IMG/VR virus record: IMGVR_UViG_3300010149_000106
Span: 1-28,130 of that record
Origin: a virus
DNA: 28,130 nt
Strand: one strand, 5' to 3'
A program made the translations under genes and the position numbers. Below are positions 1,735 through 22,130 of this stretch, in pieces. The notes under the pieces were generated by a model, which saw only the letters and a list, made by a program, of their open reading frames with translations, ran no database searches and was not told where the DNA came from. The first letter of the stretch is position 1; each line of letters starts with the position of its first letter.

Positions 1735-3434
1735 GCTTCAGAAATACTATACCTTATTTTGATTCGGTCTACAGGAAGAGTAGACCACAATATATTATTC
1801 CTAGCAAAAGTCCAAGAACCTGTACCTAGAGAAGACGACGTTGCTGTAGTAATGAAATTAGTTTGATTCAGTTCTAGCGTAGGGAACAGATCAATTTCGT
1901 AGTCTGAAGCTGTAATGCCTTCATTAGCAGTAAACGTAATCGTTATTGTCTCTGCAGCATCGTCTGGATCCCAATGGTTAGGGGACACTGACAAGGATCC
2001 AACAGTAGCTAAATCCACCGGGGTGTCAGATACAGCTTCAAAATATATAAGATTACTTACTCGTTGGGATACCCAGCTAGTTTTAAAATACAAATCTCTG
2101 TCTACAGTAGCAGGTAGTGTTACTGCAGTAGAACTCATAAATCCACCGTTGTCAGGTACAGAAATGGAAATGGTTTCGCTGACTTCAGGAACCCCACTAA
2201 AATCTGAAGATGTGTAACCCTCTACCTTAATGGTGCTGTTATATACCTGAGAATACAGGCTGTAATAGATAAAGCCGGATGACGCAGGCTCATTCAACCG
2301 GAAGTTTACTACGTCAGACGGCTCAAAATCTACAGTAGTAGTAGTAGTACTATTAACCCAAACACTTGCTGCAGAAAGAGTAGCGGTTTGATTCGATGTA
2401 GGTAGAGTAAGAGTATTCTTTGCCTCTAGGACATAAAATACCAATGCTACTGTACTATCAAAGTCGTCAGACAGATTGACGCTAGAAACATATGTGCCAT
2501 TTGCTTGAAGCGAAGTAAAGTCTAGACTGTGTGTAGAGACAGTGGAGCCATTTGACACCAGAACCTTTGCAGTAAGATCTGCTAATCCTTTCTTTTGCCC
2601 AGAATAGCTAGGGCCACTGCTAAGTGTTTGGAAGCTGTAATCAGTGGTTACAGGGGATATAGAAAACCCTACTTGATTATTAGGAATGAGCGGATTGTAC
2701 TCAGATGTGTATAGCGTAACATTCAAGTGTTTAGCCGCACCTAAGCGAAAATCATAGGTTCTCCCTTGGTGAAGCAGGGTGTCAGCAACCGCGAGAAGGC
2801 CATCATTATTTAAATCTCCTAATGGAACATCTGGGAATGTTGTAACCAACCCTACAGAATCAGATGACTCTAGAGTTCCTAACGAATATGGTGACTCGCT
2901 GTACCCTAGCTTAACGGCTTGAGTGATAGCACCAGCTAATGCTGTAGTCACGGTGATTACTCCTGAATATGTATTCGGTATAGTAAAGGAGAAATCAGCA
3001 TCATTATCCTCGGCATTTACTAAAACAATATTTGATGCAGAGTCTCCATATTGAGTGCTGATTACTGCATTAACCTCATATCCTGTTATTGGAGATAAGT
3101 CAGAAACACCGATAACCTCAAACGTTATAGTTCCCCCAGGAGAATATGTTGCTGTAGTGTTTTGGTATGTAGTAAAATTACCATCATAGTACACCACATC
3201 GTAAGTGACGACAGGAGGGGTGTAGTCATCAAAGCCTGGATCTTCGGGGTCGTCTACATAGCCGTTTTTAGCTGTGTAGAGGAGGGTATTAATAAAGAAA
3301 TCTTGCTTATCACAATCCCTATGCAGATCATACTCTGCCTTAGCAATATAGATTGCAGATGCGCCTGAGAAGTACTCATCTAGAGCAACATTCAGGTCTG
3401 TAGTAGTATCGTAGTCAGCAGGTAAGAAAAACAT
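1731..3434 (-). CDS. Fibre or appendage protein with a dockerin-like calcium loop
   Basis: About 567 residues, mostly Ser/Thr/Tyr/Val-rich beta repeats typical of virion appendages. Residues ~205-223 read GDLNNDGLLAVADTLLHQG, an EF-hand/dockerin type I loop (D-x-N-x-D-G-x-x-x-x-x-D) as often seen in secreted proteins of Bacteroidota and their phages. The N-terminal ~70 residues (DLNVALDEYFSG...DKQDFFINTLLYTAKNG) are helical and may be the virion attachment part. I prefer the ATG at 3434, which overlaps the previous stop as TAATG; an in-frame ATG at 3461 would add nine hydrophobic residues (MHLYLRLFL). Host-binding or polymerising role is inference. Confidence 0.7.
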   Translation of the reverse strand: MFFLPADYDTTTDLNVALDEYFSGASAIYIAKAEYDLHRDCDKQDFFINTLLYTAKNGYVDDPEDPGFDDYTPPVVTYDVVYYDGNFTTYQNTTATYSPGGTITFEVIGVSDLSPITGYEVNAVISTQYGDSASNIVLVNAEDNDADFSFTIPNTYSGVITVTTALAGAITQAVKLGYSESPYSLGTLESSDSVGLVTTFPDVPLGDLNNDGLLAVADTLLHQGRTYDFRLGAAKHLNVTLYTSEYNPLIPNNQVGFSISPVTTDYSFQTLSSGPSYSGQKKGLADLTAKVLVSNGSTVSTHSLDFTSLQANGTYVSSVNLSDDFDSTVALVFYVLEAKNTLTLPTSNQTATLSAASVWVNSTTTTTVDFEPSDVVNFRLNEPASSGFIYYSLYSQVYNSTIKVEGYTSSDFSGVPEVSETISISVPDNGGFMSSTAVTLPATVDRDLYFKTSWVSQRVSNLIYFEAVSDTPVDLATVGSLSVSPNHWDPDDAAETITITFTANEGITASDYEIDLFPTLELNQTNFITTATSSSLGTGSWTFARNNILWSTLPVDRIKIRYSISEA

Positions 3435-4033
3435 TAAGAACAGCCGCAAATACAGGTGCAAGAACTTCCGGTACAGATGTTAGACATCAATGTGACTTTT
3501 CGTTCTGCTGCTGTATAACGGGCTGCATTAACATCAAGTTGTGCACCTGTTCTAAGTGACACTAGCTCTTGCAGTGTCTGTAATTGCTGGGTCTCTTTAC
3601 ACTTATCGCATGAACTAGCTAAATAAGTGTCGAGCTTGGTAGAGATGCACGTATCTATAGTAGCTAAGTACAAAGTGTACTCGTCAAAACTATAGGTAGT
3701 GCCTCCAAATGAGTAGTCAACTTGAAAACGATAAAGACCGTCCGGAAACGTACTGGTAGTTATCGAGGGAACTTTGGACGGAGTAATCTCTAACGGATTA
3801 CCCCAAGGTTGGGCTAGAACATAATTGTATCCTGCATTAGATACAATCGCTTGTTCCTCAGCAGCATTTGCTCCTGTAGAAGTGTCTAACAGAGTTTCTT
3901 CCTCAGGAACAGTATGTCGACTTGGAGTATTGACCTTAAGAAGTAAATCTTCACGTGCCGTGGCGTTAGGGGTGTGATCCTGTAATTGGAACACACCCCC
4001 GACAACCTTAATTCTCCAATATCCTGTAGCCAT
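3434..4033 (-). CDS. Virion-associated protein with Cys-rich C-terminus
   Basis: 199 residues. The N-terminal half looks like a beta-rich fold (MATGYWRIKVVGGVFQLQD; later GLYRFQVDYSFGGTTYSFDEY). The C-terminal part is helical with CDKCK near residue 140 and ends in seven cysteines within the last 14 residues (ICTGSSCTCICGCS). I do not recognise a named family; similar CDKCK-containing helical tails occur in small virion proteins of marine phages next to fibre genes. Cysteines could bind metal or form disulfides in the particle. It is joined to the fibre gene by a TAATG overlap. Confidence 0.6.
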   Translation of the reverse strand: MATGYWRIKVVGGVFQLQDHTPNATAREDLLLKVNTPSRHTVPEEETLLDTSTGANAAEEQAIVSNAGYNYVLAQPWGNPLEITPSKVPSITTSTFPDGLYRFQVDYSFGGTTYSFDEYTLYLATIDTCISTKLDTYLASSCDKCKETQQLQTLQELVSLRTGAQLDVNAARYTAAERKVTLMSNICTGSSCTCICGCS

Positions 4034-4885: not shown

Positions 4886-6064
4886 TTATGCGACTGTTGC
4901 TGCAGTATCTGTAGCTGCAGTTGATACGTTACCAGAAGTATCTGTAATAGTGGCGGTCGCAGTAAGCGTTACAGACGCAGCATAGCTATCGGCGGTTACG
5001 CCAGTATTTATTACACGAGCAGTAGTCGCATCAACAGCTACATTAATAGTAACATCTGCTTCTGAACCACTGCTGCTCAGTACAATTGTACCGTTAGCTG
5101 CATCAGAGGCAAATGAGCCAGCAAGCGATACGAAGATTGCATCTGCATCACTAACATCATAATTACTAGCAGAAGTCCCTTCCGCATCACTTGCAAATGC
5201 AACTGAAGTAAACGCGGCCGGAGCAGTTAAGTCAACCACTGCACTGCCGAACATCTCTTCTAGCACCTCAAGTAAGTTGCTGTCACCTTCGTCATCAGCA
5301 ATACAGATCCGCACGACTTCGTTCACTTTGCGGCGATTTGGAAGTGATTTTTCAATTTCGACAGTATAGATGCTGTAGTCAAGCCCTGTGCCAGTAGCAG
5401 AAGCAGGCACTACAATTGGAAACTCGTATTGATTGTAAGCACCCGCACTGATATATGCACGAGTCTCCAAATCAATGACATTTGATTGTTGGCCTAAGCG
5501 CCCATTGTTATCGCCAGAGACACTAACAGTTAAAGCGTCGTCACCAGTTACAACTACATCGCTTCCACGAGGAGTCACTGTGATAGCAACGTCTGATCCA
5601 CTAACAGCCATTGTTACGTTCTTAAAACGCTCTGTATCAGAACGTCCTGCGAAGTTGGCTACTATTTCGGTAGCGTTTTTGCCTGTCACGCCTAAAACAT
5701 CGTATAACTCTACGCCGTTTTTTGCTTCTAAACGAATAGAGTTCATGGATGCCACGATATTACCTACTGTAATAACTTGATTAGTACCGGCATTTGGCTG
5801 AGAGAACTTGATATTTTTAATATCACTCCGCAAAAACTCTGTACTACTTAACGTGGCTAAACTTCCATCAGGTTGAGTATGAGCAGCAGTAAGCTTGATA
5901 AGACCATTTAAGGCTCCAGAAGAGTTACCAGCAATAACAGCTCCATCATGCTGCACAAATAGCTTCCCATCAGTAGCCGCATTTGCAACACTTGTGGCTA
6001 AGCAGTTTGCTGCAGTAGAGTCGATGTCGCCGCGTACAACAAGAGTAGTTTCAGTAAAACTCAT
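4886..6064 (-). CDS. Virion structural protein with C-terminal bacterial Ig-like domain
   Basis: 392 residues. Residues 1 to ~275 form a beta-rich core opening MSFTETTLVVRGDIDSTAAN and ending near NLLEVLEEMFGSAV. Residues ~278-392 look like an added immunoglobulin-like domain: DLTAPAAFTSV, then Ser/Ala/Thr-rich strands, closing with ATITDTSGNVSTAATDTA, the D-x-x-G-N-x-S pattern of bacterial Ig-like repeats. Such domains decorate exposed surfaces of many phage particles and are thought to bind glycans. The core resembles the following gene (4044-4853) in length, opening and closing segments. Start overlaps the previous stop as TAATG. Confidence 0.65.
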   Translation of the reverse strand: MSFTETTLVVRGDIDSTAANCLATSVANAATDGKLFVQHDGAVIAGNSSGALNGLIKLTAAHTQPDGSLATLSSTEFLRSDIKNIKFSQPNAGTNQVITVGNIVASMNSIRLEAKNGVELYDVLGVTGKNATEIVANFAGRSDTERFKNVTMAVSGSDVAITVTPRGSDVVVTGDDALTVSVSGDNNGRLGQQSNVIDLETRAYISAGAYNQYEFPIVVPASATGTGLDYSIYTVEIEKSLPNRRKVNEVVRICIADDEGDSNLLEVLEEMFGSAVVDLTAPAAFTSVAFASDAEGTSASNYDVSDADAIFVSLAGSFASDAANGTIVLSSSGSEADVTINVAVDATTARVINTGVTADSYAASVTLTATATITDTSGNVSTAATDTAATVA

Positions 6065-17097: not shown

Positions 17098-17688
17098 ATG
17101 GGTATAGTATACTTAGGGATATTCCTACCACAGAAATCTATTGACCAGCTATTGGTTCCAATAGACACAAACATCAAGCATCCACACATTACCATGAAGT
17201 ACTATGGTACATGGAATCTTGATAGGCTATCTGAAGAAGATCACAGTAAAGTAGGAATACATACTGAGATACATCCTTGGGCTATGATTACCTCTAAGGA
17301 TATTGATGTCCTTATATGTAGAAGGAGTCATGAAGGGATGGGTGATATGCCGCATGTCACTCTGCGGGCGTCTAATGGTGCTTTGCCTGTGAACTCTAAC
17401 AAGTACACAGAAGCATACACTAAGATATTCAAGGCTAGGGTATTCGACTCTAGTCCTCTTGGTGATGCTCAATACGAAGCCCTAGACTTCTTTGCCAAAG
17501 AGCATCCAGATGCTAAAATCTTCAAGTATGGTACTATTTCACCCATTGCCGCAAGGTGGGGTGTATATACTAGCGAAGGTGTTAAGTATCAACTGCCATC
17601 TAAAAGACTGCCAGGCCCAGATACAATAAGTATCCACCATCCAGACAACTGGAGGTGTATCGAGCCTGAGTATGATGCATATGACTAA
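17098..17688 (+). CDS. 2H phosphoesterase superfamily protein (cyclic phosphodiesterase-like)
   Basis: 196 residues from ATG 17098 (MGIVYLGIFLPQKSIDQLLV). It carries two H-x-T signatures in the right context: HPHITMKYYGT (H30, T32) and MPHVTLRASNG (H86, T88), about 56 residues apart, with hydrophobic strands before each. That is the defining pair of the 2H superfamily (LigT/CPDase/AKAP7/Acb1-like), enzymes that open 2',3'-cyclic phosphates or 2'-5' linkages. C-terminal ~70 residues (DAKIFKYGTISPIAARWGVY...) are an extra region of unknown role. Two genes later comes a polynucleotide-kinase-like protein, so RNA end healing is a reasonable guess; an anti-defence cyclic-nucleotide hydrolase is the main alternative. 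A TTG start at 17077 would overlap the previous stop and is less likely. Confidence 0.7.
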   Translation: MGIVYLGIFLPQKSIDQLLVPIDTNIKHPHITMKYYGTWNLDRLSEEDHSKVGIHTEIHPWAMITSKDIDVLICRRSHEGMGDMPHVTLRASNGALPVNSNKYTEAYTKIFKARVFDSSPLGDAQYEALDFFAKEHPDAKIFKYGTISPIAARWGVYTSEGVKYQLPSKRLPGPDTISIHHPDNWRCIEPEYDAYD

Positions 17689-17692
17689 TAAC

Positions 17693-17902
17693 ATGATTAT
17701 GAAGAACAACGCTATTCTTACAGCACTAGTCTCTTTTATTACATGTATCTATACATGTACCATTGGACTACTCGTAGGTCTCATCAACTCTGATGACCTA
17801 CATCCTGACCCCAACGCAACACTTCTATTGGCTCTCATTGGAGGGCTAATAGTTGTGTGCCTATGGATTGCTTTAGCATCTGCCAACAACAAAGAATCTT
17901 AA
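17693..17902 (+). CDS. Small membrane protein with two transmembrane segments
   Basis: About 69 residues. Two hydrophobic spans (roughly ILTALVSFITCIYTCTIGLL and ATLLLALIGGLIVVCLWIAL) separated by a short acidic loop NSDDLHPDPN form a helical hairpin. There are several in-frame ATGs (17672, 17675, 17681, 17693, 17699); 17693 is the first after the preceding stop at 17688. The next gene begins with ATG two bases after its stop (TAATCATG). Function unknown; a holin cannot be excluded but early-arm position argues against it. Confidence 0.65.
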   Translation: MIMKNNAILTALVSFITCIYTCTIGLLVGLINSDDLHPDPNATLLLALIGGLIVVCLWIALASANNKES

Positions 17903-17904
17903 TC

Positions 17905-18573
17905 ATGTTAATACATCAAGTAATTATCTTACGAGGTCTGCCCGGTGCCGGTAAAACTACCGTGGCTTCTACCTTAGCATTAGCGTCACGTGGTACAATA
18001 TGCTCTGCTGACCAATACATGGTTGACAGCAATGGCGAGTACCACTTCGACCCAAAGCGACTGAAAGATTGTCATAACCTCTGCTTCGATAAATTCTGCA
18101 AAGAGTTAACCAATGCAGTTCAAGACAAGCATTACGACCTTCGTAATCAGGCGTACACTATCATTGTAGATAACACCAACACTCAGTATTGGGAGTTCCA
18201 GAAGTATATCAACAAAGTAGCGAACGTGAATCTTCTGCTGAAAGAACTCGGCTCTAGCGACAAATTCATTGTTACTCAGCTCATCGTCGAGAATCCATCA
18301 GGATTTCAGTCTACACATGATGTTCCTAGTGCTACTATCGCCGCGATGAAAGACCGGTTTGAGGTTTATTTAGGTCCAGACCATCAGCTTAGTGACTGTC
18401 AGGAAGAACAGGTTCAAGAACATCCACCTTACGAAGAAGACGAGTGTGTAGGGTGTGGCAATTTGTATGATGTCAATGACCCACATTGTGAATGCACTGA
18501 TCGCGAGGAGCAAGCTCAGGCTATGATGACCGAAGACATGCAAGATTCTATAGACCCTGACTATGATGAATAA
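17905..18573 (+). CDS. P-loop polynucleotide kinase-like protein (N4BP2/AAA_33 type)
   Basis: 222 residues from ATG 17905. Walker A is RGLPGAGKTT (10-19), followed by CSADQYM (33-39), IIVDNTNTQYW (87-95) and THDVPSATIAAMKDRFE (~137-153). The combination of S-x-D-x-Y/F, V-D-N-T-N and H-x-V-P-x-x-x-I-x-x-M-x-x-R-F is typical of the polynucleotide kinase branch of P-loop NTPases (N4BP2-like, T4 Pnkp kinase domain), which phosphorylates 5'-OH ends. The C-terminus is acidic with a four-Cys cluster (CVGCGNLYDVNDPHCEC, ~182-198) that could bind zinc. No phosphatase domain is attached. A longer frame starts at 17857 but the ATG at 17905 follows the previous stop neatly. Partner of the 2H protein is plausible. 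Confidence 0.75.
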   Translation: MLIHQVIILRGLPGAGKTTVASTLALASRGTICSADQYMVDSNGEYHFDPKRLKDCHNLCFDKFCKELTNAVQDKHYDLRNQAYTIIVDNTNTQYWEFQKYINKVANVNLLLKELGSSDKFIVTQLIVENPSGFQSTHDVPSATIAAMKDRFEVYLGPDHQLSDCQEEQVQEHPPYEEDECVGCGNLYDVNDPHCECTDREEQAQAMMTEDMQDSIDPDYDE

Positions 18574-18883
18574 GACTCTAACTAAAATGAGTAGTAGACA
18601 GATTCAACACATCTTACGTGATGAGCTTAGGAATCAAAAGCTCAAGCACAGGTCTATGGCATATTTAGCTGACCGGCATCTGTCAGAACTAAAGAAGTAT
18701 GCAGCCCTTAAAAACTTTGAGCAAATAGATATTCAATCTCGTTTGCACTCTGAGTTTTGCCGAGAGCAACATATATCTAGTGTTGAAATCACGCGTTTAG
18801 AGAAAGAGCTGAAATATCAGCAACCTGCACCCAACAGAGTTGCTAAGTTTGTGATGAAACTTAAGATGAGGTTTAACCTATAA
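18563..18883 (+). CDS. Small helical early protein, unknown
   Basis: Up to 106 residues starting at ATG 18563 (MMNKTLTKMSSRQIQHILRD), with an alternative ATG at 18587. It is charged and helical (RNQKLKHRSMAYLADRHLSE, later EITRLEKELKYQQ) and ends in a basic segment (RVAKFVMKLKMRFNL) that could touch nucleic acid or membrane. Overlaps the kinase-like gene by 11 bases, so the two are probably co-translated. It is the last gene before the structured non-coding block. Confidence 0.6.
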   Translation: MMNKTLTKMSSRQIQHILRDELRNQKLKHRSMAYLADRHLSELKKYAALKNFEQIDIQSRLHSEFCREQHISSVEITRLEKELKYQQPAPNRVAKFVMKLKMRFNL

Positions 18884-19140
18884 CATTGTATGATGCCTTG
18901 CCTAGGCACCTCAATCTTAAGTAACACGGGGTTTGACTGTGCCTTGTTACCCAATTCAGTTACTATCTAAAAGTCCTACGCTAATCAATCGTAGGCATTA
19001 TTTATCAGTCAAGCAATAGTGTACGTGTTACCGCTTGATGTATAGACCACGTACCTGTCCCAGCTTGGACAGCTTAGTCATAGTTAGAGGGGGTGTAGCT
19101 GTTAGTGACGACTACGGTCTCAGTACACCCCTTCCATTTC
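18884..19140 (+). ncRNA. Structured non-coding block upstream of a tRNA-like element
   Basis: No convincing ORF lies in 18884-19251. Read 5' to 3' on the plus strand: TGCCTAGGCA palindrome (18899-18908); stem GTAACA (18921-18926) with TGTTAC (18945-18950) continued by GG/CC after one mismatch; perfect 6-bp stem CCTACG (18975-18980)/CGTAGG (18990-18995) with a 9-base loop; a pseudoknot (listed separately); perfect 6-bp stem CTGTCC (19055-19060)/GGACAG (19067-19072); and 8-bp stem GGGGTGTA (19090-19097)/TACACCCC (19124-19131) continued by CTG/CAG. So many exact stems in 260 bases argues for a structured transcript. Strand is inferred from flanking genes and the tRNA-like element. No own promoter was found. 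Confidence 0.55.
19008..19054 (+). ncRNA. H-type pseudoknot
   Basis: Stem 1: TCAAGC (19009-19014) with GCTTGA (19033-19038), extendable by a G-T pair at 19008/19039. Stem 2: GTACGTG (19021-19027) with CACGTAC (19048-19054). The order 1-2-1'-2' makes the stems interlock, with connecting loops of 6, 5 and 9 bases, sizes that allow an H-type fold. A perfect 6-bp hairpin starts on the very next base (19055) and could stack on stem 2. Confidence 0.6.
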
Positions 19141-19222
19141 AGCACAGTCAGGTTTGATAAGCATTTCATTTCATCAGAATGGATTACAAAATGCTTATGT
19201 GGTTCAATTCCACACTGTGCTC
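19141..19222 (+). ncRNA. tRNA-like RNA without a D-stem
   Basis: Acceptor stem AGCACAG (19141-19147) pairs exactly with CTGTGCT (19215-19221), followed by a discriminator C and no encoded CCA. Immediately before it is a perfect T-arm: TGTGG, loop TTCAATT, CCACA (19198-19214), matching the GGTTCRANYCC box. Between them, instead of D and anticodon arms, are an 11-base single strand TCAGGTTTGAT containing GG, and one long hairpin: AAGCATTT-CATT pairs AATG and AAATGCTT with a 7-base side bulge and a 7-base loop TCATCAG. C rather than T at the position equivalent to 33 and the lack of a D-stem make decoding unlikely. Acceptor, T-arm and long second stem resemble the tRNA-like domain of tmRNA. Confidence 0.6.
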
Positions 19223-19251
19223 AATCAACTAAAACATCGAATACACACAAG

Positions 19252-19767
19252 ATGGATATCAGCAAAACAAAGTTCATTAAGAACCTAGTGTTCAAACAGA
19301 GAAGCTACATCGAAGGAGGCAAAGTGTCTTACGGTGACAACCAGAGACACATCAACTATCAAGCTTGGCTTCACCTTCCAAACAAGTACAAGCTCTCAAT
19401 TATCACTGGCCCTGTTGGGACAGGACTAAAATCTGTTCCTAACGTCTATGAAATTGGGTTCTTCTCTTCACTTCATGGAGAGATGATTAAGGCACACAAA
19501 GAGGTGTACTGTTTCACCAACAAAGAAGGTGTAGAGAAGGAAGTTATTGACTACGATAGCACTGCTGGCTACTTCACTCTTGAAGGGCTTGAAGAATACC
19601 TCGTAGAGATTAGTGGGCGTCCAACTCGTACCATCGAAATGGAGATCGAAGAGGGTTACCTCTGTTCAGTACATAAGACAGAGTTAGAATACTCTACCAA
19701 TAGCCAAGTAATGGAACGCGTGTGTCCTAAATGCGAACCTGGACTCTTTAAATCTGAAGCCGAGTAA
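19252..19767 (+). CDS. Early protein with C-terminal Cys/His cluster, unknown
   Basis: 171 residues from ATG 19252 (MDISKTKFIKNLVFKQRSYI). The middle has IITGPVGTGLKSVPNVYEIG and FFSSLHGEMIKAHKEVYCFT. The last 40 residues contain CSVH (about 135-138) and CPKC (about 160-163), a spacing that could form a zinc ribbon. The longest frame starts at 19105 but runs through the tRNA-like element and is rejected. Followed by the RadC-like gene two bases after its stop. No family recognised. Confidence 0.7.
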   Translation: MDISKTKFIKNLVFKQRSYIEGGKVSYGDNQRHINYQAWLHLPNKYKLSIITGPVGTGLKSVPNVYEIGFFSSLHGEMIKAHKEVYCFTNKEGVEKEVIDYDSTAGYFTLEGLEEYLVEISGRPTRTIEMEIEEGYLCSVHKTELEYSTNSQVMERVCPKCEPGLFKSEAE

Positions 19768-19769
19768 TC

Positions 19770-20234
19770 ATGAAAACTATTAAAGAAGATATCTTTTTAG
19801 GATGGACAGCAGGTGAACTAGCTATAACATACAAAAGGGCAGCGCTAGATGGACCAACCATCAAAGCACCTGAGCATACTATCAAACTACTACGTAGATG
19901 CTACTCAGATACTATTGAGATACGTGAGTCAGCTATATGCATAGGTATATCCCGCGCTAATAGAATACGCTCAGTATTTATAGTAGGGGAAGGCGGTACA
20001 GCCGGATGCGTGATTGACCCTAAGCTAGTATTCAGCAGACTGCTGCTAGAAAACTGCTCTGCCTTTATCTTATCTCACAACCATCCTAGTGGCAACACAA
20101 ACCCTAGTATGGCAGATAAGAAATTGACACGTGATTTTCGAGCTTGTGGTAAAGTACTCGACATACCCTTGCTCGACCACATAATAGTCACCGACAACTC
20201 ACACTTCTCGTTTGCTACACACGATATGCTATAA
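19770..20234 (+). CDS. RadC-like JAMM/MPN-domain protein
   Basis: 154 residues, the length of the RadC catalytic domain alone, without the N-terminal helix-hairpin-helix of bacterial RadC. JAMM motif is present: an upstream acidic residue in IEIRESAICIGISRANRI (~E53), then SHNHPSGNTNPSMAD (H103, H105, S107, D116), which bind zinc in the family. C-terminal segment IPLLDHIIVTDNSHFSF matches RadC. RadC proteins are common in phages and mobile elements, where a role at replication forks or in anti-defence has been suggested but is unsettled. It lies in an early operon with nucleic acid enzymes. Confidence 0.88.
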   Translation: MKTIKEDIFLGWTAGELAITYKRAALDGPTIKAPEHTIKLLRRCYSDTIEIRESAICIGISRANRIRSVFIVGEGGTAGCVIDPKLVFSRLLLENCSAFILSHNHPSGNTNPSMADKKLTRDFRACGKVLDIPLLDHIIVTDNSHFSFATHDML

Positions 20235-20244
20235 CACTATCATC

Positions 20245-20508
20245 ATGCCGCATCCTAAACTCACTCCGACACTCAAGTCCAAGTATCAAAACAAATGGTA
20301 CAAGGCCTTAGTAGACAAGATCCAAAAGGATCCCAATGTTCCAGATTGCGAAAGAGTTCAACTCAAACAAGGGTATATATTCATTTCTCGTGCTGTAGAA
20401 CTTGTATTCGAGCACAGCGCAGAAGCACATGCTCTTCTACTAGAACTAAATGAACAGGAACACCTGGATACAGATCCAGATGCTACTCGTCTTTTTGATC
20501 CGCAATAA
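20245..20508 (+). CDS. Small early protein, unknown
   Basis: 87 residues from ATG 20245 (MPHPKLTPTLKSKYQNKWYK), ten bases after the RadC-like stop. Contains VQLKQGYIFISRAVELVFEH and an acidic end (EQEHLDTDPDATRLFDPQ). A longer frame from 20212 overlaps the RadC-like gene and is less likely. Its last 26 bases overlap the tail of an antisense gene (20483-20659), so the two genes are convergent and share 3' ends. No family recognised. Confidence 0.6.
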   Translation: MPHPKLTPTLKSKYQNKWYKALVDKIQKDPNVPDCERVQLKQGYIFISRAVELVFEHSAEAHALLLELNEQEHLDTDPDATRLFDPQ

Positions 20509-20659
20509 CTCTATTTCGGAGATACGCTAGTTCTTGATGAAGCTCTCCTATCATTTGTATGAGCTTTAAGTTTTGCTGACGCAACTCATCTATTGTTGAT
20601 TCCAAATGCTGGATTCTATCCATCATTTTCAGTATAAGTTTCGTCTTCTTAAACATCAT
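20483..20659 (-). CDS. Small antisense coiled-coil protein
   Basis: A 58-residue minus-strand ORF fills the 190-base gap between two plus genes. It reads MMFKKTKLILKMMDRIQHLE, then STIDELRQQNLKLIQMIGEL and HQELAYLRNRVIADQKDE. The heptad pattern (I-x-x-L-x-x-x-I-x-x-L) is a clear leucine-zipper-like coiled coil, and the codons give no sign of random sequence. Upstream on the minus strand is TATTTTTG (20677-20670), an exact TAnnTTTG element 11 bases before the ATG. The coding stop lies inside the plus-strand gene at 20508. Function unknown; small coiled coils of this kind may be regulators or structural adaptors. Confidence 0.6.
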   Translation of the reverse strand: MMFKKTKLILKMMDRIQHLESTIDELRQQNLKLIQMIGELHQELAYLRNRVIADQKDE

Positions 20660-20698
20660 TGCAGAGTATTCTCAAAAATACGATAATTATAGTAAACT

Positions 20699-21578: not shown

Positions 21579-21591
21579 TATCTATATGTAC

Positions 21592-21621
21592 TTGCTCATA
21601 TCAAATAAAGCAGTATATTTG
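21592..21621 (+). promoter_or_regulatory. Bacteroidota-type promoter
   Basis: TTG at 21592-21594 and TATATTTG at 21614-21621 are separated by exactly 19 bases, matching the Bacteroidota sigma factor consensus (TTG/TTTG, N19-21, TAnnTTTG). It lies just after a stop codon in a 187-base gap with no ORF on the plus strand, so it should drive the RNA candidate that follows, starting about 5-7 bases downstream. Confidence 0.6.
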
Positions 21622-21627
21622 ACTGTG

Positions 21628-21774
21628 TAGTATAGAGTATATGCAAGTAAGAATGTTTTTCCAAAGTACCTCTTGCACTCACAATATAGACTTCATATAT
21701 GTGACGAAAGAGACGTTGTAAGCAGTTTGTTTTATTTGGTTATAGGTAAGAGGGCTTCGGCCCTTTTACTTTTT
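21628..21774 (+). ncRNA. Candidate small non-coding RNA
   Basis: A transcript of about 147 bases is framed by the promoter at 21592-21621 and the terminator at 21746-21774, with no plus-strand ORF of note. Internal stems visible: TGCAAG (21642-21647) with CTTGCA (21672-21677), and TCACA (21679-21683) with TGTGA (21700-21704). Its 3' end overlaps the stop of the antisense basic protein gene. Start position is an estimate. It may act in trans or simply protect against read-through into the opposing gene. Confidence 0.5.
21746..21774 (+). terminator. UUCG-loop intrinsic terminator
   Basis: GTAAGAGGGC (21746-21755), loop TTCG, GCCCTTTTAC (21760-21769), a 10-bp stem with one G-T pair, followed by TTTTT (21770-21774). 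A stable UUCG tetraloop followed by a T-run is a textbook rho-independent terminator for plus-strand transcripts. The stop codon of the minus-strand basic gene (21766) lies within it. Confidence 0.85.
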
Positions 21775-22074
21775 CTTCGTGTTTCGGCGACGAGATGAGG
21801 GTTTTTTCCCCTTCTTCATGCCATTACGAGCACGATTCTTTGACTGTGATTCCATCACAATCTTACCGCCTTTTGTATGGGAGGCATCCTTTTTATCCTT
21901 ATTACCATACGTCCCTGCGCGTCTGTTAGCTCTATTAGCAGCGACGCGCTTCTTTACCGCTGATTTTTTCTTCTGGTATTGAGCATCATACTTACGCTTC
22001 TTTGCGATACTCCTCGCAGTCATGCCACGTTGTTTATACGTGCGCCCTTTACCAGCTAATGAGTTACGTGCCAT
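21766..22074 (-). CDS. Highly basic conserved phage protein (MARNSLAGKG type)
   Basis: 102 residues, with Lys and Arg dominating: MARNSLAGKGRTYKQRGMTA, then SIAKKRKYDAQYQKKKSAVK and a central ANRANRRAGTYGNKDKKDAS. The phrases RRxGTYGNxDxKDxSH and ESQSKNRARNGxKK are known to me from a family of small basic proteins in marine phages, and the ending is RRRNTKKK. The charge suggests nucleic acid binding or DNA compaction. It is the only sizeable minus-strand gene in the plus-strand arm and is divergent from the next gene with a 56-base A/T-rich interval, so it needs its own promoter and is probably expressed late, like the virion genes. Confidence 0.75.
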   Translation of the reverse strand: MARNSLAGKGRTYKQRGMTARSIAKKRKYDAQYQKKKSAVKKRVAANRANRRAGTYGNKDKKDASHTKGGKIVMESQSKNRARNGMKKGKKPSSRRRNTKKK

Positions 22075-22130
22075 GCCCTAAAATTTAATCAGTACTAATT
22101 TAAATCTTTTACCTCTATTTTTTAAGTATC

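Follow-up and report, generated by a model that had tools for sequence, protein, structure and literature searches.

Comparison of related viral sequences supports the view that a gene-free block in a crAss-like phage genome encodes a structured RNA under selection. Its 128-nt core appears to pass between distantly related phages and to be gained or lost as a unit. In the account that we consider moderately probable, the block is an RNA cassette that sits in a phage operon and is exchanged horizontally; tRNA-processing enzymes would free it at a tRNA-like element, and it would act in trans.

A gene-free block in a crAss-like phage genome

The window, by which we mean the whole stretch of DNA analysed, is a 28,130-base virus record whose terminase, portal and major head protein match PHROG families. 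The terminase matched 159 phage records, with Flavobacterium phage FpV21 at the top (40.9% identity), and further matches carry the names Bacteroides, Cellulophaga and CrAssphage. The virus is called crAss-like on the basis of these matches, and its host is therefore probably a member of the Bacteroidota. The samples of these records are presumably marine, to judge from their dataset numbers. Excerpts of PMC10136315 describe the order of phages related to the window virus as prevalent in the gut and present in many environments.

Long ORFs of the window lie on the minus strand from ~0.1 to 16 kb and on the plus strand from ~17 kb. In the plus-strand arm, exactly 368 bases (18884–19251) hold no credible gene, confirming the block that had been noticed from the letters alone (Table 1). 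The 171-aa protein encoded after it has no PHROG, Pfam or NCBIfam match. The original prediction had called the arm otherwise gap-free, which does not hold: by our own selection among mechanical ORFs, there are further gaps of 190 (20509–20698), 552 (21579–22130) and 78 bases. The 190-base gap, which could be a promoter region or a further RNA, has a counterpart in genome G001 that is 85% identical to locus L021 over 189 nt. Gaps of 189 bases also occur in G016, G019, L050 and L071, with L050 67% similar to G016/L071. The beginning of the gene-less 552 bases corresponds to a 187-base gap in G001 and is 82% identical over 186 nt in L021. The second gene upstream of the RNA (17857–18573) encodes a P-loop kinase, possibly an RNA-repair kinase (Pfam AAA_33; weak match to the polynucleotide-kinase family phrog_505, E = 1.5e-7), and the second gene past it (19770–20234) a RadC-like JAB-domain protein (Pfam E = 1.5e-30).

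As predicted, the fold of the whole block is better than expected from shuffling (z = -2.76; none of 100 shuffles matched it), which is not so for every part: z is -3.14 for 19077–19140, -1.32 for the pseudoknot core at 19006–19132 and -0.48 for 18928–19076, as scored by a program that cannot count pseudoknots. No promoter signal was found for the block, and the Bacteroidota promoter consensus TTTG-N-TANNTTTG has 0 matches in the window.

Table 1. Predicted features of the gene-free block and its flanking genes, in window coordinates
Feature	Position	Strand	Details
Upstream gene, 106 aa	18563..18883	+	No PHROG or Pfam match; stop codon precedes block
Leader	18884..18927	+	Alignable with L021/L006 as far as CTTAAGTA (18916-18923)
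Putative pseudoknot A	18928..18961	+	GGG in 18928-18931 with CCC 18950-18952; GACTG 18935-18939 with CAGTT 18957-18961
Hairpin P, CCTACG/CGTAGG	18975..18995	+	Halves 18975-18980 / 18990-18995
H-type pseudoknot B	19008..19054	+	Stem 1 19008-19014/19033-19039; stem 2 19021-19027/19048-19054
Hairpin H, CTGTCC/GGACAG, loop CAGCTT	19055..19072	+	Halves 19055-19060 / 19067-19072
Linker TAGTCATAGTTAG	19075..19087	+	1 variable position among 5 core sequences
Long stem T, inner hairpin capped by TACG	19089..19132	+	Contains GGGGTGTA / TACACCCC
tRNA-like element	19141..19221	+	Acceptor 19141-19147/19215-19221; D strand with GG 19148-19157
tRNA-like element, further parts	19158..19214	+	Helix P2 19158-19166/19189-19197; T arm 19198-19214, which abuts both
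Downstream gene, 171 aa	19252..19767	+	ATG at 19252; homologues in L006/L021 and L007

A conserved core with compensatory base changes

The region common to relatives begins near 18928, and from about that position the comparison supports a pseudoknot-rich RNA comprising, in order, putative pseudoknot A, hairpin P, pseudoknot B, hairpin H, the linker and stem T. The 128-nt core (H-type pseudoknot, hairpin, constant linker and long stem) occurs in five distinct viral sequences: the window virus, L007/L082 (genome G004), L020 (G006), L083 (G021) and L017. In a tool-made alignment of these five, which amount in effect to ~3 lineages, 99.4% of the 176 cells at 36 pairs can pair and 11 pairs show two-sided changes, compared with 24–50% pairing in a control in which partners were slid by 1–3 columns. 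None of 500 shuffles reached the number of two-sided changes or the covariation score of this 36-pair count, and 5 of 500 reached its number of further pair types. One outer pair of stem T is found as G-C, A-T and T-A. Stem 1 of pseudoknot B has compensatory pairs at 5 of 7 positions among the five sequences. In stem 2 the single compensatory pair among them is the seventh, which changes from G-C to T-A and lies outside the 36-pair count; the six stem-2 pairs inside that count have no two-sided change.

A sixth, diverged copy, L021b, was located through a 51-nt match, and its hand alignment fits the plan of the core. With it included, two-sided changes are seen in 22 of 38 pairs of stems P, B1, B2, H, T and the inner extension Ti, and none is broken, in a count that excludes four non-pairing L021b positions (P1, H1, H6, T5) and two bulges, one in L021b and one in L017. 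By stem, the changes fall at 4 of 6 pairs in hairpin P, 5/7 and 3/7 in stems 1 and 2 of pseudoknot B, 4/6 in hairpin H, 5/9 in stem T and 1/3 in Ti. Those in hairpin P, which reads CCTGA/TCAGG in L021b, all come through that copy. The L021b pairs were counted by hand, in an alignment chosen to follow the stems, because MAFFT set this copy out of register in A4–A6. Pseudoknot A is present in four of the six copies; its changes run only between G-C and G-U, none of them two-sided, so that the comparison lends it little support.

L021b lies 3′ of the 171-aa homologue in L021. Its opening 51 nt are 94% identical to the pseudoknot-A region of the window, after which the sequence is very different. 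The core covariance model, R1, misses it even at E = 10, with L021 among the loci scanned, and its own fold is not exceptional (z = -1.12). A descriptor of a pseudoknot plus hairpin proved too unspecific when run on all loci. A stricter version, run on G005, G016 and G019, gave 27 hits at or above the L021b score (29) in 491,918 nt on both strands, or by our own arithmetic ~0.2% for a 40-nt interval; given this low specificity, the assignment of L021b rests on its position after the 94%-identical 51 nt. At L021 ~3100 (L006 6001–6402), L021b begins where the 171-aa homologue, a protein of 133 aa in this relative, comes to its end; the final codons of that gene extend into the GGGG of pseudoknot A.

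Single-base indels in the core alignment argue against a conserved reading frame, and a protein-coding frame in the core was rejected; that relatives would share none had been anticipated. In 3 of 4 members, the fold of the core by itself shows no clear advantage over shuffled sequence; the tool cautions that its shuffles do not give probabilities for related sequences. Of the five stem items listed in the original prediction, all exist in the sequence and four are supported by comparison, if its unspecified pseudoknot is taken as 19008–19054; the order given was right apart from the first stem, and the support for CCTACG/CGTAGG comes from hand-aligned L021b. That first helix, GTAACA/TGTTAC (18921–18926 / 18945–18950), was rejected as not conserved: where GTAACA stands, L082 has CTCATT, L021 ACATC and L017 GATTT, each ahead of a common GGGG. 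A long-range helix of the minimum-energy fold (18932–18939/19006–19012) was likewise rejected, as by eye it misfits L017 and L021b. The compensatory changes across five or six sequences thus bear out the earlier suggestion of a selected structured RNA.

A tRNA-like element at the end of the block

Comparison also supports a tRNA-like element at 19141–19221 that can form an acceptor/T-arm helix with an elbow (GG of the D strand, TTC of the T loop), which agrees with the tRNA-like end originally proposed. A 7-bp acceptor (AGCACAG/CTGTGCT) and a 5-bp T arm (TGTGG/CCACA) would make a 12-bp helix; the T loop, TTCAATT, fits the tRNA pattern TTCRANN, and the D strand is without a stem. P2, a 9-bp helix around 22 nt, abuts the T arm and replaces the 5-bp/7-nt anticodon arm, and a variable loop is absent. 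The element is not a tRNA by ARAGORN or Rfam: neither ARAGORN nor RF00005 gave a tRNA in the window, with none at E ≤ 10 in 18600–19500.

Comparable elements close gene-free blocks in L020 and L018/L025. L017 ends in a form with a small D arm and an encoded CCA, L021a is the element alone with no core, and the L021b variant, whose acceptor and T stem both differ, keeps their pairing save for one mismatch. Fold z-scores are -3.24 for the window, -2.92 for L020, -2.30 for L018, -1.35 for L021b and -0.63 for both L021a and L017, three of the six being not clearly better than shuffled. The tRNA-like scan gave 10 rows, namely the window, L006, L018, L020, L023 and five others taken as tRNAs or chance; the L017 and L021b ends failed it and were recognised by eye and folding. 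A T-arm/acceptor 21-mer is identical at the ends of blocks with differing upstream sequence (window, L017, L018/L025, L020 and L021), an invariance that is partly due to selection of the loci, which were found by exact pattern. The same T-arm 21-mer also stands at L023 3555–3715, where the tRNA-like context is doubtful and the P2 loop very long. At L025 5785–5859, beside tRNA-Met and tRNA-Arg, ARAGORN reports a tRNA of unknown type with the anticodon given as 'ga'.

In L007 the core occurs without the tRNA-like element and is immediately followed by TTGTTTTTT and then a gene; the element is therefore not always needed, and core and element can be gained or lost separately.

Distribution of the core and signs of exchange between phages

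The block recurs, together with an identical 171-aa protein, in four IMG/VR contigs that have other dataset numbers; in remoter relatives the protein is 74% (L006/L021) and 69% (L007) identical. DNA pattern searches returned 10 stretches for the T arm and 8 for the core. In bacterial genomes the core pattern had 0 matches and the T-arm pattern one, in a bacterial MAG, where it is part of an ordinary tRNA-Glu. A scan of 68 of 83 loci with R1, the 15 overlapping ones being omitted, gave 10 hits, every one a copy of one of its 5 seed sequences. In a second set of 26 whole records, R1 hit 7 at E ≤ 10: 5 strongly (4 distinct genomes) and 2 at 8.2 bits, which were taken as chance. In both sets, then, R1 found no member beyond its own seeds. 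A blastn search of window 17500–20500 and the L082 and L083 blocks against the phage collection gave no match, and tblastn of the 576-aa protein found none.

The similarity of the core does not follow that of the genomes. G006 and G021 have cores 95.5% identical over 133 nt, a match whose ends lie ≤3 nt from the module on both sides; the genomes share 7 proteins at a median identity of 42.9% and differ in GC content (0.42 vs 0.51), and at E ≤ 1e-8 there are two DNA matches between them besides the core (69%). L017 shares 8 proteins with G006 at a median of 86.5%, and its core, 88.9% identical over 126 nt, is below the G006–G021 value. G005 is close to both G006 and L017 (medians 85.9% and 90.8%) and has no core match, carrying other gene-poor sequence ahead of the same kind of tRNA-like end. 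G001 is near-identical to the window, with identical proteins around the block. It matches G004 at 92.6% over 203 nt (19 shared proteins, median 45.6%) and G006 at 80.4% over 209 nt spanning core and tRNA-like element (12 shared proteins, median 32.8%). Between the window and L020 (12 shared proteins, median 32.8%) the tRNA-like elements agree at 93% identity, and between the window and L021 (9 shared, median 90.5%) at 76%. The homologous site in L021 is without ~218 nt of the window, CTTAAGTA being joined to GCACAGTC; after CTTAAGTA, L021/L006 jump directly to the tRNA-like element.

Strong constraint can also keep an RNA similar, as a tRNA-Met illustrates (100% over 74 nt between G001 and G006), but constraint alone does not explain the reversed order of similarity of core and genomes. 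The different dataset numbers of the contigs make chimeric assembly an unlikely cause. These comparisons support passage of the core between distantly related phages.

Comparison with known RNAs

No Rfam 15 family matched the window at its gathering score, in keeping with the expectation that no known family would fit; at E ≤ 10 there were five sub-threshold hits (15.4–18 bits) in 18600–19500. The tmRNA model RF00023 gave 0 of 7 records over the cut-off and 9 of 14 control genomes over it, its four weak matches being 17-nt stretches inside tRNA genes, and ARAGORN found no tmRNA in the window or in 5 loci; tmRNA identity was rejected. GOLLD (RF02032) matched 0 of 7 records at E ≤ 10, with none in window 18600–19500, and 5 of 14 controls, none over the cut-off; this identity was also rejected. 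ROOL (RF03087) matched 0 of 7 records at E ≤ 10 and none of the control genomes either, and cmscan lists none.

The tRNA-like domain of tmRNA consists of an acceptor and T arm, a stemless D strand and a long P2 helix where a tRNA has its anticodon arm, with pseudoknots nearby. The element described here shares this layout; unlike tmRNA, it closes on itself and the pseudoknots lie upstream. In plant mitochondria, t-elements have a tRNA-like fold that serves as a processing site and takes no part in translation. The likeness to the present element would be one of fold, as the genomes and transcripts are different.

GOLLD and ROOL are described in excerpts of PMC12286853 as large ornate RNAs of phages and prophages, of unknown function. 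Like the block RNA they are non-coding, phage-borne and pseudoknotted, often near tRNA genes (PMC12286853, in part), and they differ in size, with models of 416 (GOLLD) and 574 (ROOL) positions vs the 128-position core here. An ORF-less stretch of the lytic phage ICP1 is transcribed into a ~800-nt non-coding RNA, which the available sections of PMC7567579 compare to GOLLD and ROOL; it differs from the block in length and context, and the likeness is one of description. Phage tRNAs that defeat tRNA-cutting defences (PMC11555353, in excerpt) offer a candidate functional analogy, being likewise phage-borne and tRNA-shaped; those are true tRNAs, and the element here is without an anticodon arm. 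Among the papers listed from the openly licensed PMC literature, titles and abstract openings held no report of this RNA, and the words non-coding, noncoding and ncRNA are all absent from the text of a Crassvirales review. We therefore regard it as a new family of structured phage RNA that has a tRNA-like tail and appears to be exchanged in the manner of a cassette; GOLLD and ROOL are nearest to it in kind.

Processing, function and alternative explanations

We infer the processing and function of the RNA as follows. It would be co-transcribed with the plus-strand operon. Since RNase P and RNase Z recognise helices with such an elbow, we propose that RNase P would cut 5′ and RNase Z (or an equivalent) 3′ of the tRNA-like element, which would liberate a ~210-nt RNA and detach the downstream mRNA. 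Once freed, the RNA might act in trans on a factor of the host. Its turnover and exchange would make a part in phage-host conflict the likeliest role; it might, for instance, bind or decoy a host protein that targets RNA. The P-loop kinase and the variable stretches in sister phages also hint at an RNA-related conflict: L017, L018 and L020 share a 198–199-aa gene (80–85% identical), ahead of which stand differing gene-free sequence and small genes of 178 aa (L018), 94 aa (L020) or none (L017).

A cis-acting leader or attenuator governing the 171-aa gene in its mRNA would account for the position of the core upstream of 171-aa homologues in the window and, with one more gene between, in L007, where TTGTTTTTT after stem T is terminator-like. 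We think this unlikely, since the next gene varies (171 aa, 146 aa and 94 aa in the window, L007 and L020 respectively, with no detectable mutual similarity), a variation that speaks against regulation in cis and in favour of an RNA acting in trans. Moreover, the tRNA-like element separates core from gene in the window, L017 has ~160 more bases and a tRNA-like end ahead of its 199-aa gene, the L083 core is followed by sequence including module C (described below), and the diverged copy in L021 sits downstream of the 171-aa homologue. It is equally doubtful that only the tRNA-like element matters, as an mRNA-processing signal in the manner of t-elements, with the upstream RNA a passenger. The shared 21-mer that closes differing blocks and the element without core in L021a would fit such a signal; the core, however, has compensatory changes of its own, and occurs without the element in L007; the 133-nt G006/G021 match stops ahead of the element.

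A selfish mobile RNA, intron-like or otherwise, spreading for its own sake would also be expected to come or go, as the core does relative to L021, and to cross between distant phages with ends that match the module precisely. This is distinctly improbable: the core sits between genes, where splicing would have no purpose, the window has no match at gathering score to any Rfam family, those of introns and ribozymes among them, and no mobility gene was recognised in the 7 proteins scanned near the RNAs. As for a decayed tRNA cluster with chance stems, tRNA genes do lie near the core in L007 and the T-arm 21-mer is present in the bacterial tRNA-Glu, yet decay yields neither compensatory changes nor a conserved loop and linker, and the covariation makes this reading very improbable.

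For an exchanged RNA that would act in trans, the unusual part is the passage of the core between phages whose shared proteins are 33–46% identical (medians). Such exchange implies a function portable between different genomic settings, which makes trans action testable. Borrowing host tRNA-processing enzymes would be a possible way for a phage to define RNA ends, here on a compact RNA that combines a covariation-supported pseudoknot with a tRNA-like tail. More tentatively, and as a possibility that we would not yet favour, crAss-like phages of this group may keep hotspots of interchangeable structured RNA modules (the core, module C and other gene-free blocks), bounded by genes or tRNA-like processing elements and swapped like accessory genes; these might form an RNA arsenal, for example against RNA-targeting defences, released by host tRNA-processing enzymes.

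Other conserved stretches

Two apparently non-coding stretches of 96 nt and 141 nt are 91% identical between L017 (9786–9881 and 10327–10464) and L018 (~2715–2809 and 3625–3764). One of them adjoins an acceptor/T-arm mini-helix (AAGTATGAA...TTCATACTT) at L018 3814–3771. Directly past the tRNA-like element of L018, a 178-aa protein (1907–2443, minus strand) has a sub-threshold Pfam hit only, with none in NCBIfam or PHROGs, and contains two HxT-type motifs (HITI, HITI), which are typical of 2H phosphoesterases. Module C was seen at L082 ~5605–5672 (G004 22039–22106), L053 1893–1967, L083 4546–4620 and L119 6093–6110. It consists of a hairpin, CCTGC-TGYGG-CAGG, whose loop is able to pair with a downstream CCRCA, followed by GGTTTAGTACCGC; by eye this loop pairing seems compensatory, with TGTGG/CCACA in place of TGCGG/CCGCA.
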